Positions 6,445 through 13,390 of a DNA stretch of 64,000 nucleotides are shown here, piece after piece. Origin of the DNA: Hymenobacter setariae (GTDB lineage Bacteria; Bacteroidota; Bacteroidia; Cytophagales; Hymenobacteraceae); assembly GCF_007713685.1 (NCBI RefSeq), contig NZ_VMRJ01000001.1:912129-976128 (forward strand), given 5' to 3'. How positions within the stretch are numbered: the stretch's first letter is position 1; every line of letters begins with the position of its first letter. Both the position numbers and the translations under genes were made by a program. The notes below the pieces were generated by a model, which did no database searches, was not told the origin of the DNA, and was given only the letters and a program-made list of their open reading frames with translations.

Positions 6445-7845
6445 TCAGGCCCCGTCCATGCGCACGATTTTGGGCGTGAAGGAGCCTAGGACATCTACCA
6501 ATTCGCGCTGGCTGGCCATCACAGTATGAATGTCTTTGTAAGCCATCGGGGCTTCGTCGAGGCCGCCACCAATGAGCTCCACACCATAGTCGGCGAGGTG
6601 GCGGCGCACCTCGGCTTCGCCTAGTTCGGCCTTGGCGCGGGTGCGCGACAGCAGGCGCCCCGCCCCATGTGAGGCTGAGGCTAGCGACGCCGGTACCCCG
6701 CGCCCACGCACAATAAAGCCGGGCGCCGTCATGGAGCCGGGAATTATGCCGAGCACGCCCGCGCCGGCCGGTGTGGCGCCCTTGCGATGTGTAATGACCT
6801 CGCGGCCATCGGCTAGCGTTTCTTTCCAGGCAAAGTTGTGGTGGTTTTCCACTTTCGCCAGGGGTTTCTCACCCAAGGCTTTGGCTAGGCGCCGGTGTAT
6901 CTGCTCGTGGCAGGCCGAAGCATAGTCGCCGGCAAGGGTCATGGCGGCCCAATACTCCTGGCCAGCCTCAGTGTCGAGGCCCAGCCAGGCCAGGTATTGG
7001 GCTTCGGCGGGCAGCTTGCACACATCGCGGGCCAGGCCGGTGTAGTGATTCGCCACACTCGCGCCCAGGCCGCGCGAGCCCGAGTGCGAAAGCACGCCTA
7101 CGTACTGGCCCAAGGGCAACCCTAGGTCGTTGGTCGGGTCGGTGATTTCGACCAGCCCAAACTCCACAAAGTGGTTGCCCGAGCCCGAGGTGCCGATTTG
7201 CTCCACGGCTGTGGCGTGCTTGTTTTTCAGAAACGGTACCGTCGCAAATTCGTCGCGCTCCAGCACGTCGTGCCCTAGGCGCTGGCCACGGTCCCAGCCA
7301 CGCCCGCCGCCAAAGCGAGTGTTGGCAAGCAGCAAATTGCGCAGCTCCTGGGTACGCTGCCCTAGGTACTTAGCCGGCAGGTCAAACACCGAGAGCGCCA
7401 TGCGGCAGCCAATGTCCACGCCCACGGCGTAGGGAATCACTGCGTTATCGGTAGCCAGCACGCCCCCGATGGGCAGGCCGTAGCCGTGGTGGGCGTCGGG
7501 CATGAGGGCGCCGGCCACCGTCACGGGCAGTTTCATGGCCGTTTCCATCTGGTGGATGGCGCCTTGCTCGATGTGCTCGGCCCCGAAGGTGGCGTACTCC
7601 TTGCGCGGCACCAGCGCCACGTGCCGCGACGGGGCCGGCAAGAGTGCGGCCGCCGTGTGGCTCCAAGCCAGGTCGGTGAGGTAGTCGGTGGGGTTAGTCA
7701 AGATGGTCTTGAGCAGCGCCAGCTGCTCGGTTTGGGGCAGGCGCTTGTGTTCTTTGCGCTGCAATTGCGCTAGCGCCAGCCCGATAGCGCGGCCCTCGGG
7801 AAACCCGAGCTGCCGCAAGTCATTGCCACGTAGTTGTGAGGCCAT
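6445..7845 (-). CDS. rtcB: RtcB family RNA-splicing ligase
   Basis: The 466-residue protein is a manganese- and GTP-dependent ligase that joins RNA 2',3'-cyclic phosphate (or 3'-phosphate) ends to 5'-hydroxyl ends. Metal-binding motifs are DAHHGYG, the cysteine in VDIGCRM, GSGNHFVEFG and SHSGSRG. The guanylylated histidine is in SHGAGR at about residue 393. It is the last gene of the minus-strand RNA locus, after the TROVE, PARG, RNA-array and PcfJ segments. No rtcA cyclase and no rtcR regulator are present. The neighbouring permuted tRNA-like RNAs are plausible ligands or substrates, but that is inference. Confidence 0.93.
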   Translation of the reverse strand: MASQLRGNDLRQLGFPEGRAIGLALAQLQRKEHKRLPQTEQLALLKTILTNPTDYLTDLAWSHTAAALLPAPSRHVALVPRKEYATFGAEHIEQGAIHQMETAMKLPVTVAGALMPDAHHGYGLPIGGVLATDNAVIPYAVGVDIGCRMALSVFDLPAKYLGQRTQELRNLLLANTRFGGGRGWDRGQRLGHDVLERDEFATVPFLKNKHATAVEQIGTSGSGNHFVEFGLVEITDPTNDLGLPLGQYVGVLSHSGSRGLGASVANHYTGLARDVCKLPAEAQYLAWLGLDTEAGQEYWAAMTLAGDYASACHEQIHRRLAKALGEKPLAKVENHHNFAWKETLADGREVITHRKGATPAGAGVLGIIPGSMTAPGFIVRGRGVPASLASASHGAGRLLSRTRAKAELGEAEVRRHLADYGVELIGGGLDEAPMAYKDIHTVMASQRELVDVLGSFTPKIVRMDGA

Positions 7846-7943
7846 GAGTTTAATTATTAATGGTTAGTTAGTAATGGTTAATGACTAGTGGAACTGGCTG
7901 ATGAATGAACCATTAACCCTTGACAATTAACCATTAATGAAAA

Positions 7944-8027
7944 GCCGGAGCGATAAGCGGCCCGCGCAACGGGCCTAGGCAGGCCCGACGGGACAGGTCG
8001 GAGTAGCGCGGGCCTACGGCATCCGGC
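7944..8027 (-). ncRNA. Structured RNA unit H, related to the array but without a tRNA module
   Basis: Read on the minus strand, it starts with GCCGGA (8027-8022), then the conserved TGCCGTA, then GGCCCGCGC. It ends with GCGCGGGCC, GCTTATCGC and TCCGGC. Both helices are perfect (6 and 9 bp), and the internal loop matches the array units further upstream in transcription. Inside are only two small hairpins. One is a 5-7-5 arm, CCGAC-CTGTCCC-GTCGG, whose loop has the form of an anticodon loop with GTC. The other is GGGCC-TGCCTA-GGCCC. No T arm, D arm or acceptor stem exists. It lies in the gap between the PcfJ and rtcB genes and is followed by a T run. Confidence 0.75.
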
Positions 8028-8058
8028 TGGTTTTTAGTTTGATATAGTTGAGACGGCG

Positions 8059-9369
8059 TTATGCCAGGGCGTAGTACTGGTCCCATACACGGTCGATGGC
8101 GCTGATGCCCTCTTGCCGCAGCCAGCTGAGCACCCAGCCGCTTTCCTCGGCAGTGGGAGAGCGGTTGTACTTGCCGCGCACCTGCACCAGCCGCCGCTCG
8201 GGCGACAGTTGCAGCGTGAGCTTGCGGGCCCCGCCCAGGGTGAGCGAGTAGATACCCGCCTGGCCGCGCACGCAGCGGTGCATAAACGACGCCACGCAAT
8301 GCTGCATCTGTTGGCCTTCTTCGAGCAGCTCGGGGTAGCTTAGCAGCTGTCGGATGCATACCCAGTCGCCCGTGCCGCCCACGAAACCCGGCACCGGCAA
8401 GCCCGGCCAGGTCGTATTGAGCAACTGGTTGAAGTGCGGGTTGGCACGGGTGCGGCCGAGGCTACGTTGCCAGCGGGCCGTGCCCGCCAGCAGCGAGGCC
8501 AGTGTGCGGCCGCGTACCGAAAAACCAGGCTGGGCCGGCTCGGTGGGCGTGCCTTGATAGCGCCGCAGGCGCACGTAGTCGCACACCGGCCCAAACTGCC
8601 AGGCGTCTACCTCCGGCTCGGCCCGAAAGAGGTCGAGCACGGCCAGGTACAACTCATCGTCGGCACCAATGGGCAGGCGGCCCAGCGGCGAGGCCAGCAT
8701 CACGCCTAGGTACTCGGGCGCCCCGCGCTCGGCCAGCTGGGCATAGCGGTAAGCCTCGTGGAAGGTGCAGCCGGCTGGGGCCTGCTGCATCAGATGCGCT
8801 TGCCGCTTGCTGAGGTGCACTGGCAACCCTACAAAGCTGCGCAGGGGCTGGCCGCTACCTAGGTGCACTAGCAGGGCACTTAGGCAGAGGTCGTTGCGCT
8901 GGTCGGGGGACTGGCCCCAGCGGTGGCGCACCCAGGCCGGCACATCGCCAAAGCCATCGAAGAGGTGGCGCACCAGGCTGTCGAGTTGCCGGAAGGCGTT
9001 TTTCGAAGGCGGCTGCCAGTCGTCTAGCTCGCGCCGGCGGCGGTGGAAGTGTAGGCCTAGCTGCACGAGGGCCGGCGCCAGTTCGGGGCGTGAGAAAAGC
9101 ACGGTGCTGCGCAGGGCCAACTGGCGCAGCAAGTGCCCGATGCGCCATTGCTCGTTGGCCGAGCGGCCACCTAGGTGGCGATGCAGCGCGGCCAATAAGG
9201 AATGCGGCTGGGCCAAGCGACTGATTTCGGTTTCGCCTTCGGCCGAAAATAGAAAATTGATTTGACGCGGCAGCGGCCATTTTTCCCAAGTGGGGCGCTG
9301 GGCCAGGGCCACATCGGCGGCCTGGGCCACGCGCACGCGCCAGGGTAAAGGTTTGTGTCGGTTTGCCAT
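8059..9369 (-). CDS. PcfJ domain-containing protein
   Basis: The 436-residue protein carries the C-terminal PcfJ-like domain. Its hallmark is a short motif with EEGQQMQHCV, where the histidine and cysteine fall at about residues 357-358, followed by a beta-rich segment (IYSLTLGGARKLTLQL) ending in LVQVRGKYNRSP. PcfJ-like proteins are named after a conjugative-plasmid protein and have no settled biochemical function. Here the gene sits between the permuted tRNA-like RNA array and rtcB on the same strand, which points to a role in RNA handling. The basic N-terminal half, with many arginines and histidines, would fit RNA binding, but no known domain is recognised there. Confidence 0.75.
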   Translation of the reverse strand: MANRHKPLPWRVRVAQAADVALAQRPTWEKWPLPRQINFLFSAEGETEISRLAQPHSLLAALHRHLGGRSANEQWRIGHLLRQLALRSTVLFSRPELAPALVQLGLHFHRRRRELDDWQPPSKNAFRQLDSLVRHLFDGFGDVPAWVRHRWGQSPDQRNDLCLSALLVHLGSGQPLRSFVGLPVHLSKRQAHLMQQAPAGCTFHEAYRYAQLAERGAPEYLGVMLASPLGRLPIGADDELYLAVLDLFRAEPEVDAWQFGPVCDYVRLRRYQGTPTEPAQPGFSVRGRTLASLLAGTARWQRSLGRTRANPHFNQLLNTTWPGLPVPGFVGGTGDWVCIRQLLSYPELLEEGQQMQHCVASFMHRCVRGQAGIYSLTLGGARKLTLQLSPERRLVQVRGKYNRSPTAEESGWVLSWLRQEGISAIDRVWDQYYALA

Positions 9370-9526
9370 AAATGCAGGGCCGGCGCGGCCCAGGGGCGGC
9401 CGGCTTAGGGGGGTGAGAGACGCGAGAAAAGCATAATCGAGGCGGTCGGGGCAATGTCGTTTCGCATGATGAAGTAGGCTTTTAGCCAGCTGCTAGCCAG
9501 CGTGATACAATAAGTTAAAACCCAGT

Positions 9527-9677
9527 AAATGGGGTAATAAATGAGTAGTGACCTAGGGTGACAATTCAGCTTTCGGTCACTCAGCCACCGCGCCGTCAGG
9601 CACGGGCAGAATTCGAACCTGCGGCAACCTGGTAGGCCATGGCATTCAGAAGTAGCGCTGCGCTACGGCATCCACTT
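9527..9677 (-). ncRNA. Permuted tRNA-like RNA, unit G (Ser-like D arm)
   Basis: The last unit of the array. On the minus strand it shows the conserved TGCCGTA (9670-9664), a T arm GCAGG-TTCGAAT-TCTGC, the 3' acceptor strand CCGTGCC, a four-base loop TGAC, and the 5' acceptor strand GGCGCGG, which pairs with it (one G-U). A D-arm-like segment GGCTGAGTGACCGAAAGC follows, as in serine tRNAs. The outer helix AAGTGG/CCATTT can still form next to the 3' motif TTTATTAC. The inner helix is not found and its 5' strand can fold on itself (GTAGCG/CGCTAC), so this copy may be decayed. Confidence 0.6.
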
Positions 9678-9687
9678 CAGCTACTAA

Positions 9688-9841
9688 TAAGCTGGGCAAC
9701 AAGCGCAAAGCCTGCCAATACGTGCTTTGCCATTTTAAGCTACCGCTGGAAATTGCTGCTACATCAGTCCAGCGAGCGGGATTCGAACCCGCAATCCCGT
9801 CGTCCCGAAACGAAGTAAGGCCCTGCTACGGCACCAGCTTA
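9688..9841 (-). ncRNA. Permuted tRNA-like RNA, unit F (Pro CGG-like, 8-base loop)
   Basis: The outer helix TAAGCTGG/CCAGCTTA is perfect, the internal loop is TGCCGTA against GCTTGTTGC, and the inner helix is GCAGGGCC/GGCTTTGC (two G-U pairs). Inside are the anticodon arm with loop TTTCGGGA (anticodon CGG if proline-like, at 9805-9807), a T arm GCGGG-TTCGAAT-CCCGC, and acceptor TCGCTGG paired with CCAGCGG across an 18-20 base loop. Then comes a D arm GCTT-AAAATGGCA-AAGC. Two anticodon-stem pairs come from the 3' piece (CG) and three from the 5' piece (TCG). The loop has eight bases instead of seven. Confidence 0.75.
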
Positions 9842-9863
9842 AGTAGTAAAAAATTCAAAAAGC

Positions 9864-9989
9864 AACCCAGGCAACAAGCGGTCGGCGGCATTCCCGAGGC
9901 CGGGGCCTCGGAACGGGGAGTCGAACCCCAACTCTGATTTACAGTCAGATTTCACCAAGCGAAGGAGCGCCAGCCTACGGCACTGGGTT
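9864..9989 (-). ncRNA. Permuted tRNA-like RNA, unit E (Tyr GUA anticodon arm)
   Basis: The outer helix AACCCAG/CTGGGTT is perfect, the internal loop is TGCCGTA against GCTTGTTGC, and the inner helix GGCTGGCG/CGCCGACC has one mismatch. The anticodon arm is complete: TCTGA-CTGTAAA-TCAGA with GTA at 9940-9942. It is followed after only two bases by a T arm (TGGGG-TTCGACT-CCCCG). The acceptor TTCCGAG pairs with CTCGGGA and is extended by two more pairs capped with CCCG. There is no normal D arm and no long variable arm, unlike a real bacterial tRNA-Tyr, so it is a mimic or a highly reduced form. Confidence 0.75.
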
Positions 9990-9999
9990 TTGATTTTTA

Positions 10000-10142
10000 G
10001 TTTGGGGCAATAAGCGCCCGGCCTCCATATCCTGCTCTACCAAGCTGAGCTACAGCCGCTGCCGGAGCAGCCACCGGCAGGACTCGAACCTGCGACCTGG
10101 GCATTAAAAGTGCGAAGTATGGCCGGGCTACGGCACCCAAAC
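10000..10142 (-). ncRNA. Permuted tRNA-like RNA, unit D (Lys UUU)
   Basis: The clearest unit. The outer helix GTTTGGG/CCCAAAC and inner helix GCCCGGCC/GGCCGGGC are perfect, around TGCCGTA and GCTTATTGC. Then follow CTTC and the anticodon arm GCA-CTTTTAA-TGC-CC (TTT at 10106-10108). Next are variable loop AGGTC, T arm GCAGG-TTCGAGT-CCTGC, the 3' acceptor strand, a UCCG tetraloop cap and the 5' acceptor strand GCGGCTG. A canonical D arm GCTC-AGCTTGGTA-GAGC, then A and GG, complete it. The GG pairs with the CC after the anticodon arm, so the chain break lies between tRNA positions 28 and 29. The acceptor has one G-G mismatch. Confidence 0.82.
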
Positions 10143-10149
10143 AAAAGGG

Positions 10150-10288
10150 AAAACGAGGCGACAGGCGGCGAGCCATCCTGCTCTAACCAACTGAGCTACA
10201 CTAGCTGCCGAAGCTACTAGCGGCGGGGCTCGAACCCGCGACCCGGCGAATCGCAATCGAAGCAAGGCTCGCCTACGGCACTCGTTTT
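10150..10288 (-). ncRNA. Permuted tRNA-like RNA, unit C (anticodon loop TTGCGAT)
   Basis: The outer helix AAAACGAG/CTCGTTTT and inner helix GGCGAGCC/GGCTCGCC are perfect 8-bp helices around TGCCGTA and GCCTGTCGC. The anticodon arm uses CGA/TCG plus GG/CC, with loop TTGCGAT (anticodon GCG at 10252-10254, arginine if read as a tRNA). The T arm is GCGGG-TTCGAGC-CCCGC. The acceptor strands CGCTAGT and GCTAGTG pair with two G-U pairs, and the extension ends in a C(UUCG)G tetraloop at 10207-10214. The D arm GCTC-AGTTGGTTA-GAGC is canonical. As in unit D, the break is after position 28. Confidence 0.82.
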
Positions 10289-10366
10289 ATAAGTTGCTAC
10301 TCAAGCGCAGCGTAAAAAAATTGTTTTCACGTCAGAAAGAGATTTTTAAGGTCAATACCTCTCAAG

Positions 10367-10495
10367 CTGCCGGGGTAATAAGTTGCCTGCGACTGCTACT
10401 CTACCGTTGAGCTACTCAGCCAGTTTGACAAGTGGCGGCCGAGATAAGAATCGAACTTATAACCCGAAGGAACGCCTGGCTACGACACCCGGCAG
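10367..10495 (-). ncRNA. Permuted tRNA-like RNA, unit B (no anticodon arm, encodes CCA)
   Basis: The outer helix CTGCCGGG/CCCGGCAG is perfect. The internal loop reads TGTCGTA against AACTTATTAC; compared with the other units, C-G has become T-A at one internal position, a compensatory change. The inner helix is two 3-bp blocks (GCC/GGC and GCG/CGC). The T arm is ATAAG-TTCGATT-CTTAT. Acceptor CTCGGCC pairs with GGCTGAG, and the 3' strand is followed by G and an encoded CCA in a 15-base loop. The D arm GCTC-AACGGTA-GAGT is canonical. No anticodon arm is present, so this unit resembles the tRNA-like module of known bacterial Y RNAs most closely. Confidence 0.78.
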
Positions 10496-10506
10496 CGAGT
10501 AAGAAT

Positions 10507-10635
10507 ACAGGGCAACGGGCAGCCAGCGCGTTGTTTGCCGCTAGCCAAGGCTAGCGCCGGGACTCGAACCCGCAGGCCCTACCGCAGTAGCACCCGAAAC
10601 CGACCACGAAGTAGCGCCAGCCTAACGGCACCTGT
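10507..10635 (-). ncRNA. Permuted tRNA-like RNA, unit A (first of the array)
   Basis: The outer helix is ACAGG/CCTGT. The internal loop is TGCCGTTA against TGCCCGTTGC, one base longer on each side than in the others. The inner helix is GCTGGCGC/GCGCTGGC with two wobble pairs. The T arm carries TTCGAGT, and the acceptor CGCTAGC/GCTAGCG is perfect and closed directly by a CTTG tetraloop (10546-10549). The 5' side after the acceptor is short (GCAAACAAC) and has no D-arm consensus. The stretch before the T arm can form a small hairpin CTAC-TGCG-GTAG, perhaps a long variable arm. Its tRNA identity cannot be read. Confidence 0.7.
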
Positions 10636-10660
10636 AAGAGAAGGAGTTGGCCCTAGGTGT

Positions 10661-10735
10661 GGAACGGGCCGCTGGGGCAGCGAGGCCCCAGCGGTAGTCC
10701 GTTCCGGCCAGCGGCTGTCCTTAAGAGGTCAGCCG
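10661..10735 (-). other. Two strong hairpins between the PARG gene and the RNA array
   Basis: Hairpin 1 (10661-10705) pairs GGAACGG and CCGCTGGGGC with GCCCCAGCGG and CCGTTCC around a small internal loop. Hairpin 2 (10712-10735) pairs CGGCTG with CAGCCG and AGG with CCT. They lie downstream of the PARG stop and just upstream of unit A. They have no T run, so they are not simple terminators. They could protect or direct processing of the transcript that continues into the array. Confidence 0.5.
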
Positions 10736-10785: not shown

Positions 10786-11634
10786 TTATGCTGCCAATTC
10801 TTTGCAATCAAGGGCTTCTTCAAAAGCGCGCAGCACGGCGTGCGGCGGCTTAGGGTCAAAAATGGCGAAGGCTATGCACCGAAAACGGCCCCGAATGGCC
10901 GGGTCAGCCAGCGCCTCGGCAAAGAGCAGGGCCACCTGCGCCGGTTCGTTGGCGAAGACGCCGCAGCCCCAGGCGCCGAGCACCAACGCCTCCACACCGT
11001 GGCGGGCGGCAGTGGCCAGCACCAGCCGCACCCGCTGGCGCATGGTGGGCACCAGTTGAGGTAGCAGGTGAGGCGCGTTGCGAGCTAGCGCACCAGCATT
11101 CACGGCCGGAGCCGTGATGATGTCGAGCAGTAGCGGCTGGGGCCGCCATTGGCCGTCATCGGTGCGCAGCACAGGCACGCTAGGCGAGTAGATGAGGTAG
11201 TCGCTGTAAAGCGCCGTACTGGTAGGCAGACTGTTATAGGTGTACATCTCCGCAAACTGCGTGAGGCACGGGTACAGTCCCGACGACCGGGCCAGGCTTT
11301 CTTCCTGGGCTTGGCTGCCACCTAGGAAGCCGCCGCCAGGATTGCGAGCTGAGGCAAAATTCAGCACCCCTACCCTGCCAAACTCGGCCGCCAACTGTGT
11401 GGCGGCTTCGAGTGTGGTGGCGTTTTGCACCCGCACATCGGCCAGCGGGCCGGCGGGCCAGGTTAGCTCGCGCAGCAGGTCGGCCGCATCGGCTGGCCGG
11501 TAGAGGCGGCTGCCCGCCTCAGTGGCCCGCTGGGCGGCCGCAAACTCGATGCGGCCGGCGGGGCCATTGTAACAGCCGTTTTCGAGAGCAGCCAGGGTTT
11601 CGCGGGCCAGTTGTTGGCGGTAGTCGCGGTTCAT
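10786..11634 (-). CDS. PARG-type macrodomain protein (TIGR02452/DUF2263)
   Basis: The 282-residue protein matches the bacterial poly(ADP-ribose) glycohydrolase family. The catalytic signature is present as GGGFLGG at about residues 100-106, followed by QEE at about 110-112, after FASARNPG. The family hydrolyses ADP-ribose from modified macromolecules. Related macrodomain enzymes can also act on ADP-ribosylated nucleic-acid ends. Here it lies between the Ro60/TROVE gene and the permuted tRNA-like RNAs on one strand, so an RNA-end or stress-signalling role is a reasonable inference. The start at 11634 (MNRDYRQQLA) is the only in-frame ATG that keeps the N-terminal helix. Confidence 0.85.
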   Translation of the reverse strand: MNRDYRQQLARETLAALENGCYNGPAGRIEFAAAQRATEAGSRLYRPADAADLLRELTWPAGPLADVRVQNATTLEAATQLAAEFGRVGVLNFASARNPGGGFLGGSQAQEESLARSSGLYPCLTQFAEMYTYNSLPTSTALYSDYLIYSPSVPVLRTDDGQWRPQPLLLDIITAPAVNAGALARNAPHLLPQLVPTMRQRVRLVLATAARHGVEALVLGAWGCGVFANEPAQVALLFAEALADPAIRGRFRCIAFAIFDPKPPHAVLRAFEEALDCKELAA

Positions 11635-11744
11635 GATAATGGTTGTCAGTTGTTACTTGCTAGTTGTCAGCCTAAAGCCGCTACTAGCAGCTACTTATGT
11701 GGCGGCCGGGGGTTCCGCTTGATTGCCCGACCGTTCAGCTTAGG

Positions 11745-13268
11745 TTACAGCTCTATTTTCTGGATTTCGGTGAGGGCGTCGCCGCCGTTTTCGAGGGCTG
11801 CCAGCACGTCAAATACTTTATCGGACCAGCCGGCAATGAGGGCCACGCCGTGCTCGGCGCGCACATCGAGCGGAGTAGGGCCGTGCCCAGCTAGGTCGAA
11901 GAGGTACAAGCGGGCCTGCGGGGCTACGTTGGCGCGGTAGGCGGCCCATTCCTGAGCTACCTCGACGCCCCGGCCGCTCCACAGCTGGCAGTCAGTGAAA
12001 ATCATAACTTTATCGACCACCTCGCGGCGTTGGCGCAAGTCCTGAATCACGAGGTAACCATTGGTGGAGTACCCCACCTCGCCCTCGCGGCGGTATAGCT
12101 CCTGCACGTTGCGCAACACTTGGCCCTGGGGTAAGGCGATGCGCTTCCAGGTATTGCCGAAGATGCCGGTGACAACGTGCTGGCAGCGGCTTTGCAGCAA
12201 CATGCCCAGTACCAGGCCTACGTCGTAGAGCAGTACTTTGCTGCGCGGCGAAATAGGCTGCTGCATCGAGCCCGACACGTCGCAGGCCACCACCACGCGG
12301 GTGTTGCCGTCGAAGCCGCGCAGGTTGGCCACGCTGGCCGAGATGGCCGCTTCGAGCGCTGCCAGCACTGGGGGCGCCGCGCCGGCACCTAGGGCCAGCA
12401 CCTCGCGGTAAGCGGCCAAAAAGCGGAAAGGCAATTGCTTGGCGCGAGCTACCTGGCTGGGGTTGGCCAAGGTGGCGCAAGCGTGAGCCAACACCTCTGC
12501 ACTTACCTTGGCCTCCAGCAAGTTGCGCAAGTTGCGCAGCAAGGCCATGTAGCCGAGACGACCGCTGGTGACGAGGGTTTCCCAGGTGTGGGCTACGGCA
12601 GCCTGGCGCTCGGCGGGCGAGGCGTAGTCGACCTGCCCGGCCGCCGAAAGCTCGGTTTCCCAAGTGTAGGGCGTGGGCAGGGTACCGGCCACCAACTGGT
12701 CGAACACCGCCTGCTGGCCTTCATCGCGCGGCTTGGGGTGCACTAAGAACAAGGCATCGCGCAAGCGCACAGCCCCGTCGCGGTTGTACTTGGCTAGCTG
12801 GTAGGCGTCAAACTTATTGAAGGCTAAGGCTAAGCCGTGTTGCACCTGTTTGGATAGCCGCCCTAGGGTCTTGGTTCCGTTGCGGCCGTTGGCCTGGGCG
12901 TAGAAGGCCAAAAGCTCTGGAATTTCATCGGCCCGCTGCACCACCCGCGCCACCAGGCGGCTCACCAAGTTGTCGCCCCGGTGGATGCGCGCCAGTTCCA
13001 CGGCCAGCACCAGCGGCACCGAGCGCAAGTACAACTGCTCGCGGGCATACACCGCTAAGCGGGCTACGAACTGCGGCTCATTCTTCGCCACCAGTTCGCG
13101 CAAGCGGACCAGGCGGGTGTCGGCAGTTTCGTAGAACTGGTCGCTAAGGGCAGCTGTAGCTACAGCGGCATATAGCTCTAAGGCTGGTGTGAGCACGTAA
13201 GCGGGTGCGCCTTCGTGGTTGCGAACGGGAGCCGGCGGCGCTTTGCGAAAATTAAAGTTGAAGCGCAT
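11745..13268 (-). CDS. Ro60/TROVE domain protein
   Basis: The 507-residue protein is a bacterial Ro60 orthologue (Rsr-like). The N-terminal two thirds is an alpha-helical repeat ring of the TROVE module, with LYAAVATAAL, LARIHRGDNL and YMALLRNLRNLL in the expected order. The C-terminal third is a von Willebrand A domain with the MIDAS motif DVSGS at about residue 330. Ro60 rings bind misfolded RNAs and Y RNAs, and in other bacteria work with PNPase or with rtcBA operons. The start is placed at MRFNFNFRK (13268), since the longer reading adds 12 non-conserved residues. It is the first gene of the minus-strand RNA locus. No clear TAnnTTTG promoter was found just upstream. Confidence 0.9.
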   Translation of the reverse strand: MRFNFNFRKAPPAPVRNHEGAPAYVLTPALELYAAVATAALSDQFYETADTRLVRLRELVAKNEPQFVARLAVYAREQLYLRSVPLVLAVELARIHRGDNLVSRLVARVVQRADEIPELLAFYAQANGRNGTKTLGRLSKQVQHGLALAFNKFDAYQLAKYNRDGAVRLRDALFLVHPKPRDEGQQAVFDQLVAGTLPTPYTWETELSAAGQVDYASPAERQAAVAHTWETLVTSGRLGYMALLRNLRNLLEAKVSAEVLAHACATLANPSQVARAKQLPFRFLAAYREVLALGAGAAPPVLAALEAAISASVANLRGFDGNTRVVVACDVSGSMQQPISPRSKVLLYDVGLVLGMLLQSRCQHVVTGIFGNTWKRIALPQGQVLRNVQELYRREGEVGYSTNGYLVIQDLRQRREVVDKVMIFTDCQLWSGRGVEVAQEWAAYRANVAPQARLYLFDLAGHGPTPLDVRAEHGVALIAGWSDKVFDVLAALENGGDALTEIQKIEL

Positions 13269-13390
13269 GGTGGGTGGAAGTAGAGATGATGAATAGGCAA
13301 TCAATTAATTCAACGGGCAATTATTTTTGAATTGCAATGGCAATACTTTTCCCGTCGAATAAAATAGCTTTTTATTCGTTTAGCAATTAC

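Follow-up and report, generated by a model that had tools for sequence, protein, structure and literature searches.

What are the seven short units, each reading like a tRNA opened and rejoined at its acceptor end, that lie between a Ro60 gene and an RtcB gene in Hymenobacter setariae? The question is raised by a 64-kb stretch of contig NZ_VMRJ01000001.1 (hereafter the window), in which the array spans positions 9525-10639 and consists of units A to G on the minus strand, with an eighth unit, H, at 7941-8030 on the same strand. An earlier sequence-only reading had described the seven units, together with an extra one at 7944-8027, as an unreported array of permuted tRNAs. All of them are present, and a covariance model recovers eight. 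The array is indeed unusual, but its order is already that of YrlA-type Y RNAs (RF02553) and it belongs to a Ro60/RtcB locus, which that reading did not mention. We propose that the units are eight YrlA-like Y RNAs that would be bound by Ro60 through their stem, seven of them presenting permuted tRNA-like modules as decoys or docking sites, and we give this reading a probability of about 0.57.

Eight units share a covarying stem

The sequence-only reading had staked its case for outer and inner helices that differ between units but remain complementary on covariation in a wider alignment, and this covariation is strong. We aligned 26 C/D-type units, taken from the window and from Hymenobacter loci, on a structure read from these same sequences; 95.2% of the cells pair, and 20 of the 41 pairs have changed on both sides. 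Cells with both sides changed number 127 against 38.5 in shuffles (0 of 500 shuffles reach 127), and controls with slid partners pair in at most 46.0% of cells, all figures that ignore kinship among the units. The size of the effect leaves little doubt, as far as comparison of sequences can tell, that the units are structured RNAs. Pairing reaches 96.2% of the cells in helix 1 and 97.1% in helix 2, with nine pairs of the two helices changed on both sides, and the D and T stems rank among the most constant parts.

The internal loop between the outer and the inner helix is nearly fixed (TGCCGTA/TTRTTGC), as had been noticed, and the replacement of a C-G by a T-A pair seen in unit B proves to be part of a general covariation: over 256 units found by a script, the loop pair is C-G in 203, T-A in 41, T-G in 12 and C-A in none (kinship ignored). 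The script picked up six of the eight window units (A-F), missing G and H, and the C-A mismatch of unit G (TGCCGTA facing TTATTAC) is an exception to the fixed loop that falls outside this count. A CTTCG element is conserved directly 3' of the inner helix, and short loops connect the two acceptor strands, whose stem in most cases exceeds 7 bp (pairs 8-10 of helix 6).

The covariance model R1, whose training set includes window units C and D and has the other six window units outside it, finds all eight units in the window at expectation values (E) of 4e-51 to 1.4e-8, the next match being at E 0.38. Searched against the whole 6.1-Mb host genome, it returns seven of the units (A-G) together with two weak matches, and misses unit H. 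One weak match (E 7.6e-6) consists of two neighbouring ordinary tRNA genes, reading T arm then D arm (G000:C9:550655-550808), and the other (E 7.6e-4) overlaps the host tRNA-His gene (G000:C11:459448-459604). A short pattern searched over the whole genome did not discriminate, giving 310 matches against 342 for the reversed pattern.

A covariance-model search of relatives, which the sequence-only reading had suggested, places R1 matches near Ro60 and on its strand in 78 of the 80 loci fetched by Ro60. The exceptions are two: the contig of L080 stops 341 bases past Ro60, and L081 has weak matches only, on the opposite strand; in L071 a single weak match (E 1.9e-7) lies before Ro60. At E <=0.001, the window and 40 of the 80 loci hold 251 matches. 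At the same threshold 94 of 100 genomes in a family sample have a match, and so do 32 of the 33 genomes of the window's genus within it (host included), 26 of them with a best E <1e-20. Weak matches in the family genomes may be ordinary tRNAs; two of the host's matches overlap tRNA genes, so that its eight matches in the family count are not all shown as array units.

Within Hymenobacter the location of the matches is constant. RtcB lies downstream of Ro60 on the same strand in 31/31 loci, and all 211 R1 matches (E <=0.001) in these loci fall between the two genes, 3 to 11 per locus.

The units resemble YrlA

Y RNAs carry the motif GNCGAAGN0-1G, from which the GCCGTAG of the units is one base away, and they reportedly occur near Ro60 in more than 250 species. 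As expected of YrlA-like RNAs, the units have a Ro60 gene adjacent to them on the same strand and a long end-to-end stem with a conserved internal motif; a tRNA-like domain with T arm, closed acceptor and D arm is found in C, D, B, F and G. The Rfam model of YrlA, RF02553, matches D, C, B and F at E 5e-6 to 1e-3, below its cut-off, and these four are its only matches in the whole genome. In the Rfam alignment of RF02553 the T arm precedes the D arm in YrlA itself, and the permuted order is thus a known feature of YrlA. Rfam searches at the gathering threshold, over the window and nine other loci, report no Y RNA. Because their scores lie below the gathering cut-off, we file the units as YrlA-like Y RNAs and not as members of RF02553; on sequence grounds, their identity as bacterial Y RNAs of YrlA-like kind appears well supported.

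The Salmonella rsr-yrlBA-rtcBA operon, in the excerpted accounts, resembles the array in its adjacent Ro60 and RtcB genes, its stem formed by the ends of the RNA and its tRNA-like domain with T before D and a closed acceptor. That operon has yrlB and yrlA, whereas the array has eight units. The excerpted text of a review of YrlA lists D, T and acceptor arms without an anticodon arm (PMC8394870), whereas some of the Hymenobacter units have anticodon-like hairpins. The Y RNA of Deinococcus radiodurans also has Ro60 as its partner, with a proposed tether to PNPase. As far as we know, the number of units and their anticodon-like diversity are what is new here; we know of no description of them in the open literature, a scope that leaves the primary YrlA papers aside.

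Anatomy of the units

The order T arm, 3' acceptor strand, loop, 5' acceptor strand, D arm claimed by the sequence-only reading can be read in units C and D, is discernible by eye in B and F, and in G includes a D arm of the Ser type; a D arm is not clear in A and E. All units lie on the minus strand. Unit A (10503-10639; R1 E 1.1e-10) has the outer helix, a TGCCGTT motif, CTACTTCG, a long variable region, a T arm and a sealed acceptor. Unit B (10366-10496; R1 E 1.6e-14, RF02553 E 3.9e-4) has TGTCGTA facing TTATTAC, the compensatory T-A described above, followed by a T arm, an acceptor and a class I-like D arm. Unit B also matches the tRNA-Tyr variable region, a likeness that we discarded because it overlaps the conserved CTTCG element and is probably due to chance.

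Units C and D contain the clearest tRNA-like modules. Unit C (10149-10289; R1 E 2.9e-40, in the model's own set; RF02553 E 1.5e-5) carries the hairpin CGA-TTGCGAT-TCG, with a His/Gln-like loop and the triplet GCG, a T arm, a UUCG-capped acceptor and a class I D arm. Unit D (9998-10144; R1 E 4e-51, in the model's own set; RF02553 E 5.1e-6) carries the hairpin GCA-CTTTTAA-TGC, in which 11 nt are identical to the anticodon arm of the host tRNA-Lys, followed by a T arm, a capped acceptor and a class I D arm. Inside unit D, at 10067-10138, ARAGORN predicts a linear tRNA-Lys, apparently a miscalled Y RNA that could mislead annotation.

The remaining units are less regular. Unit E (9862-9991; R1 E 2.3e-12) contains the anticodon arm TCTGACTGTAAATCAGA, which agrees with the host tRNA-Asn arm at 16 of 17 bases (triplet GTA), while units of eight relatives agree at 17/17. 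In unit F (9687-9842; R1 E 2.7e-30, RF02553 E 1.1e-3) a Pro-like loop, TTCGGGA, lies at the tRNA offset, with 12 nt identical to the arm of the host tRNA-Pro(CGG), and is accompanied by a T arm, an acceptor and a D-arm-like part. Unit G (9525-9679; R1 E 1.4e-8) has a long variable region and an inner helix that is not clear. Unit H (7941-8030; R1 E 8.3e-12) has a stem and internal loop of the same kind and no T arm. Among the 34 sources clustered, 20 have short units like H (no T arm, a TTCGACC-type loop), which fall into two clusters and are often the last before RtcB.

tRNA identities and anticodon-like hairpins

Both the variety of tRNA identities and the anticodon-like loops exceed what the sequence-only reading had noticed. 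Likenesses in the window are to tRNA-Lys (D), Asn (E), Pro (F), Ser (G) and His or Gln (C), with A, B and H left unassigned. The host tRNA set (41 matches, 36 distinct anticodons) includes ordinary genes for Lys, Asn, Pro, Leu, Ser, His and Gln, and processing of the units into tRNAs is therefore not required. Exact matches of at least 11 nt to host anticodon arms occur in 25 of the 251 units, against one of 251 with reversed arms; among these 25 are eight Asn (17/17 bases), four Pro, eleven Lys, one Gln and one His. Matches of at least 15 nt to D-arm regions, Leu-specific D arms among them, occur in 43 of the 251 and in none of the reversed control. In a tally of scripted motif classes over 32 genomes (the window and 31 Hymenobacter loci), a C/D-type unit is present in 31, a Pro-like unit in 18, a Leu-type D arm in 17, the Asn arm in nine (one mismatch allowed) and a Ser-type D arm in seven.

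A module that retains a tRNA's 3' portion, beginning at the anticodon, is expected to have its anticodon loop start 22 bases before the T loop. We searched offsets -34 to -12 from the T loop for hairpins with a stem of at least 3 bp and a loop of the pattern YTNNNR. Among 176 units, 36 hairpins lie at -22 and eight at -21, compared with 0 to 4 at any of the other offsets; the list of 44 holds at least one false entry (L034 2761), a T loop mistaken for an anticodon loop. The hairpin recurs outside Hymenobacter, in other Bacteroidota and in phages: within 138 matches, nine from phages, 22 of 116 lie at -22, four at -21 and 0 to 2 elsewhere; the two sets partly overlap, as the loci of the 176 units include non-Hymenobacter ones. 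R1, the source of the matches outside Hymenobacter, includes the three hairpin pairs and may slightly favour hairpins; the finder of the 176 units did not use these pairs. Most units fail the test in both sets.

Where the hairpin is present, its loop has the fixed and variable positions of an anticodon loop. U33 is found in 25 and A37 in all of the 26 C/D-type units, and U33 with a purine at 37 in 17 of 17 F-type units. On a tree built from the Ro60 of 31 genomes, each represented by its best C/D-type unit (L045 was left out, its best unit having no such hairpin), position 33 changes twice and 37 never, compared with minima of 12 changes at position 34, eight at 35, seven at 36, eight at 32 and nine at 38. 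For the whole triplet the minimum is 15 changes, close to the number for shuffled labels (mean 15.7, range 14-16). The 5' strand of the hairpin uses or adjoins the conserved CTTCG element, and one strand of the new stem is thus partly provided by the Y RNA core.

Modules are probably exchanged, and similar units occur in phages

Corresponding units can carry different modules in related loci. The unit before D, with the outer helix ACGAG/CTCGT, has a His/Gln-like module in the window and L031 and a Leu-type one in L032 and L063. Unit D is Lys-like in the window and L032 and has a C-type hairpin in L031, where Ro60 is 97% identical. The simplest reading of such differences would be gene conversion within the array.

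Similar units are found next to TROVE genes of phages. Three R1 units lie just upstream of this gene in Xanthomonas phage Olaya (L128 3329-3946) and six in Caulobacter phage CcrColossus (L129 2809-3916), on the opposite side of the Ro60 gene compared with the Hymenobacter array. Phage units reach 50 bits with RF02553, and one unit in each of the two phages has the Asn-like loop CTGTTAA. No RtcB is annotated in the 9-kb stretches of Olaya and CcrColossus. In L127, a further phage stretch that includes a TROVE-like gene, R1 had no match at E <=1. A tRNA-Gln annotated in CcrColossus overlaps one of its six units.

Gene neighbourhood

The minus strand of the window reads Ro60, a PARG-like gene, units A-G, a PcfJ-like gene, unit H and RtcB. 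The Ro60/Rsr gene (11745-13304; Pfam TROVE 2e-27, vWA_Ro60 3.8e-8), presumed to be the first of an operon, encodes TROVE and Ro60 vWA domains; its product matches the solved TROVE proteins 9l5y and 9kop (E 1.1e-27) and is 97% identical, over the best segment, to that of Hymenobacter sp. BT559. Between Ro60 and the array lies a gene for a microbial-type PARG-like protein (10786-11634; Pfam PARG_cat_microb 5.3e-43), and between the array and unit H one for a PcfJ-like protein (8059-9369; Pfam PcfJ 2.5e-10). The RtcB RNA ligase gene (6445-7845; Pfam RtcB 2.4e-79) follows downstream of unit H. All four genes are on the minus strand.

In several relatives, unlike in the window, the relative of the PcfJ-like gene sits across Ro60, on its other side. 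In loci L031, L032 and L063 a Y RNA unit separates Ro60 from PARG; in the corresponding gap of the window (11635-11744) neither a reading for the unit motif nor R1 detected one. Directly before unit A, at 10661-10705 on the minus strand, is a long inverted repeat (GGAACGG...CCGCTGGGG...CCCCAGCGG...CCGTTCC), possibly a terminator or processing site.

Decoys, tethers or tRNA genes

Transcription of the array, binding by Ro60, folding into an L shape and a role as decoys are all predicted. In the mechanism that we propose, the Ro60 ring would hold each RNA through its stem, and the sealed acceptor end would prevent charging with an amino acid. The copies held by Ro60 would then either recruit the enzymes that cleave, modify or break down tRNAs or compete for them, and RtcB would rejoin tRNAs already cut. 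An array showing several tRNA faces would address several targets, and its repertoire would be able to shift as hairpins or modules are exchanged. Excerpted reports on YrlA contain related elements: the Salmonella operon is turned on when tRNA fragments accumulate, and a role of the tRNA-like domain as a competitive inhibitor of an anticodon nuclease has been suggested (PMC7790460); YrlA is also modified by the tRNA enzymes DusA and TruB (PMC8394870). A more specific version, which we put forward tentatively and consider doubtful, is that the arrays form a changeable repertoire of anticodon decoys, whose loops would lure the anticodon nucleases of phages, toxins or rivals while RtcB mends the damage; phages with Ro60 would have adopted this repertoire, and loops would be exchanged as attackers change.

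Several observations weigh against our proposal. Only C and D pass the hairpin test in the window; the whole anticodon arm of E lies at an offset other than that of a tRNA, the loop of F is in the right place on a 3-bp stem broken by an extra T (intact in most relatives), and no anticodon hairpin was found in A, B, G and H. With half of the window units lacking the hairpin and E and F irregular, the decoy idea leaves part of the array uncovered. A fixed U33 and purine 37 with variable positions 34-36 is equally expected of a merely structural tRNA-like loop, and the unit counts for hairpins, matches and loop pairs ignore kinship. As for the class, the best unit scores 38.2 bits with RF02553 against a gathering cut-off of 69 bits, and matches below this threshold also occur in 7 of 14 control genomes. 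YrlA is not cut by the Salmonella nuclease, as far as the excerpted report goes (PMC7790460). A Bacteroidota-type promoter pattern has two matches in the window, where 0.81 are expected by chance, and none near the array.

The main rival reading grants that the units are YrlA-like Y RNAs but has them tether Ro60 to PNPase (the RYPER machine) or gate Ro60. Only the elbow and the acceptor would then be needed, and the variety of tRNA types and loops would reflect neutral drift and gene conversion among paralogues. We regard this as a serious possibility, if not the probable one. Such a tether is described in excerpt both for Deinococcus, where the Y RNA links Rsr to PNPase (PMC7790460), and for YrlA (PMC8394870). 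The constancy of the D and T stems, the triplet changes that resemble shuffled labels and the window units without a hairpin all fit it. It poorly explains why hairpins recur at the tRNA offset inside and outside Hymenobacter, why U33 and A37 are held while their neighbours change, and why changes in the stem preserve pairing; these are the points on which we prefer tRNA-like decoy or docking modules.

Far less probable is that the units are true circularly permuted tRNA genes, whose transcripts, like those of some algae and archaea, would be circularised and then trimmed to give working tRNAs. The order of T arm, acceptor and D arm and the anticodon-like loops of some units agree with this, and in the excerpted account of the algal and archaeal genes (PMC3978253) the 3' part of the tRNA likewise precedes the 5' part. 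Those genes yield working tRNAs, whereas the acceptor ends of the array are sealed inside a Ro60-type stem. The units were not found to have a complete cloverleaf, a 5-bp anticodon stem and a free acceptor end: their acceptor strands are loop-joined in mostly overlong stems, and the hairpins of C and D have 3 bp with the 5' strand at the conserved CTTCG. The triplet GCG of unit C is missing among the 36 anticodons found in the host, which has ordinary tRNAs for the amino acids concerned, and unit H has the same stem and no T arm. A graveyard of degenerate tRNA genes, in which ARAGORN and Rfam would be detecting tRNA pieces, is scarcely credible given the strong covariation of the outer and inner helices, the nearly fixed internal loop and the matches kept between Ro60 and RtcB in 31/31 Hymenobacter loci. 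We rejected both of these readings on this evidence.

Implications

The array has a bearing on annotation, as the ARAGORN tRNA-Lys inside unit D and the phage unit annotated as tRNA-Gln illustrate. More broadly, the arrays, whose similar stems bear different tRNA identities and whose anticodon-like loops vary at the positions that differ among true anticodons, constitute a natural experiment on the binding partners of the tRNA-like part of bacterial Y RNAs. If the decoy reading is true, Ro60, repair by RtcB and defence against tRNA-cutting toxins would be linked.

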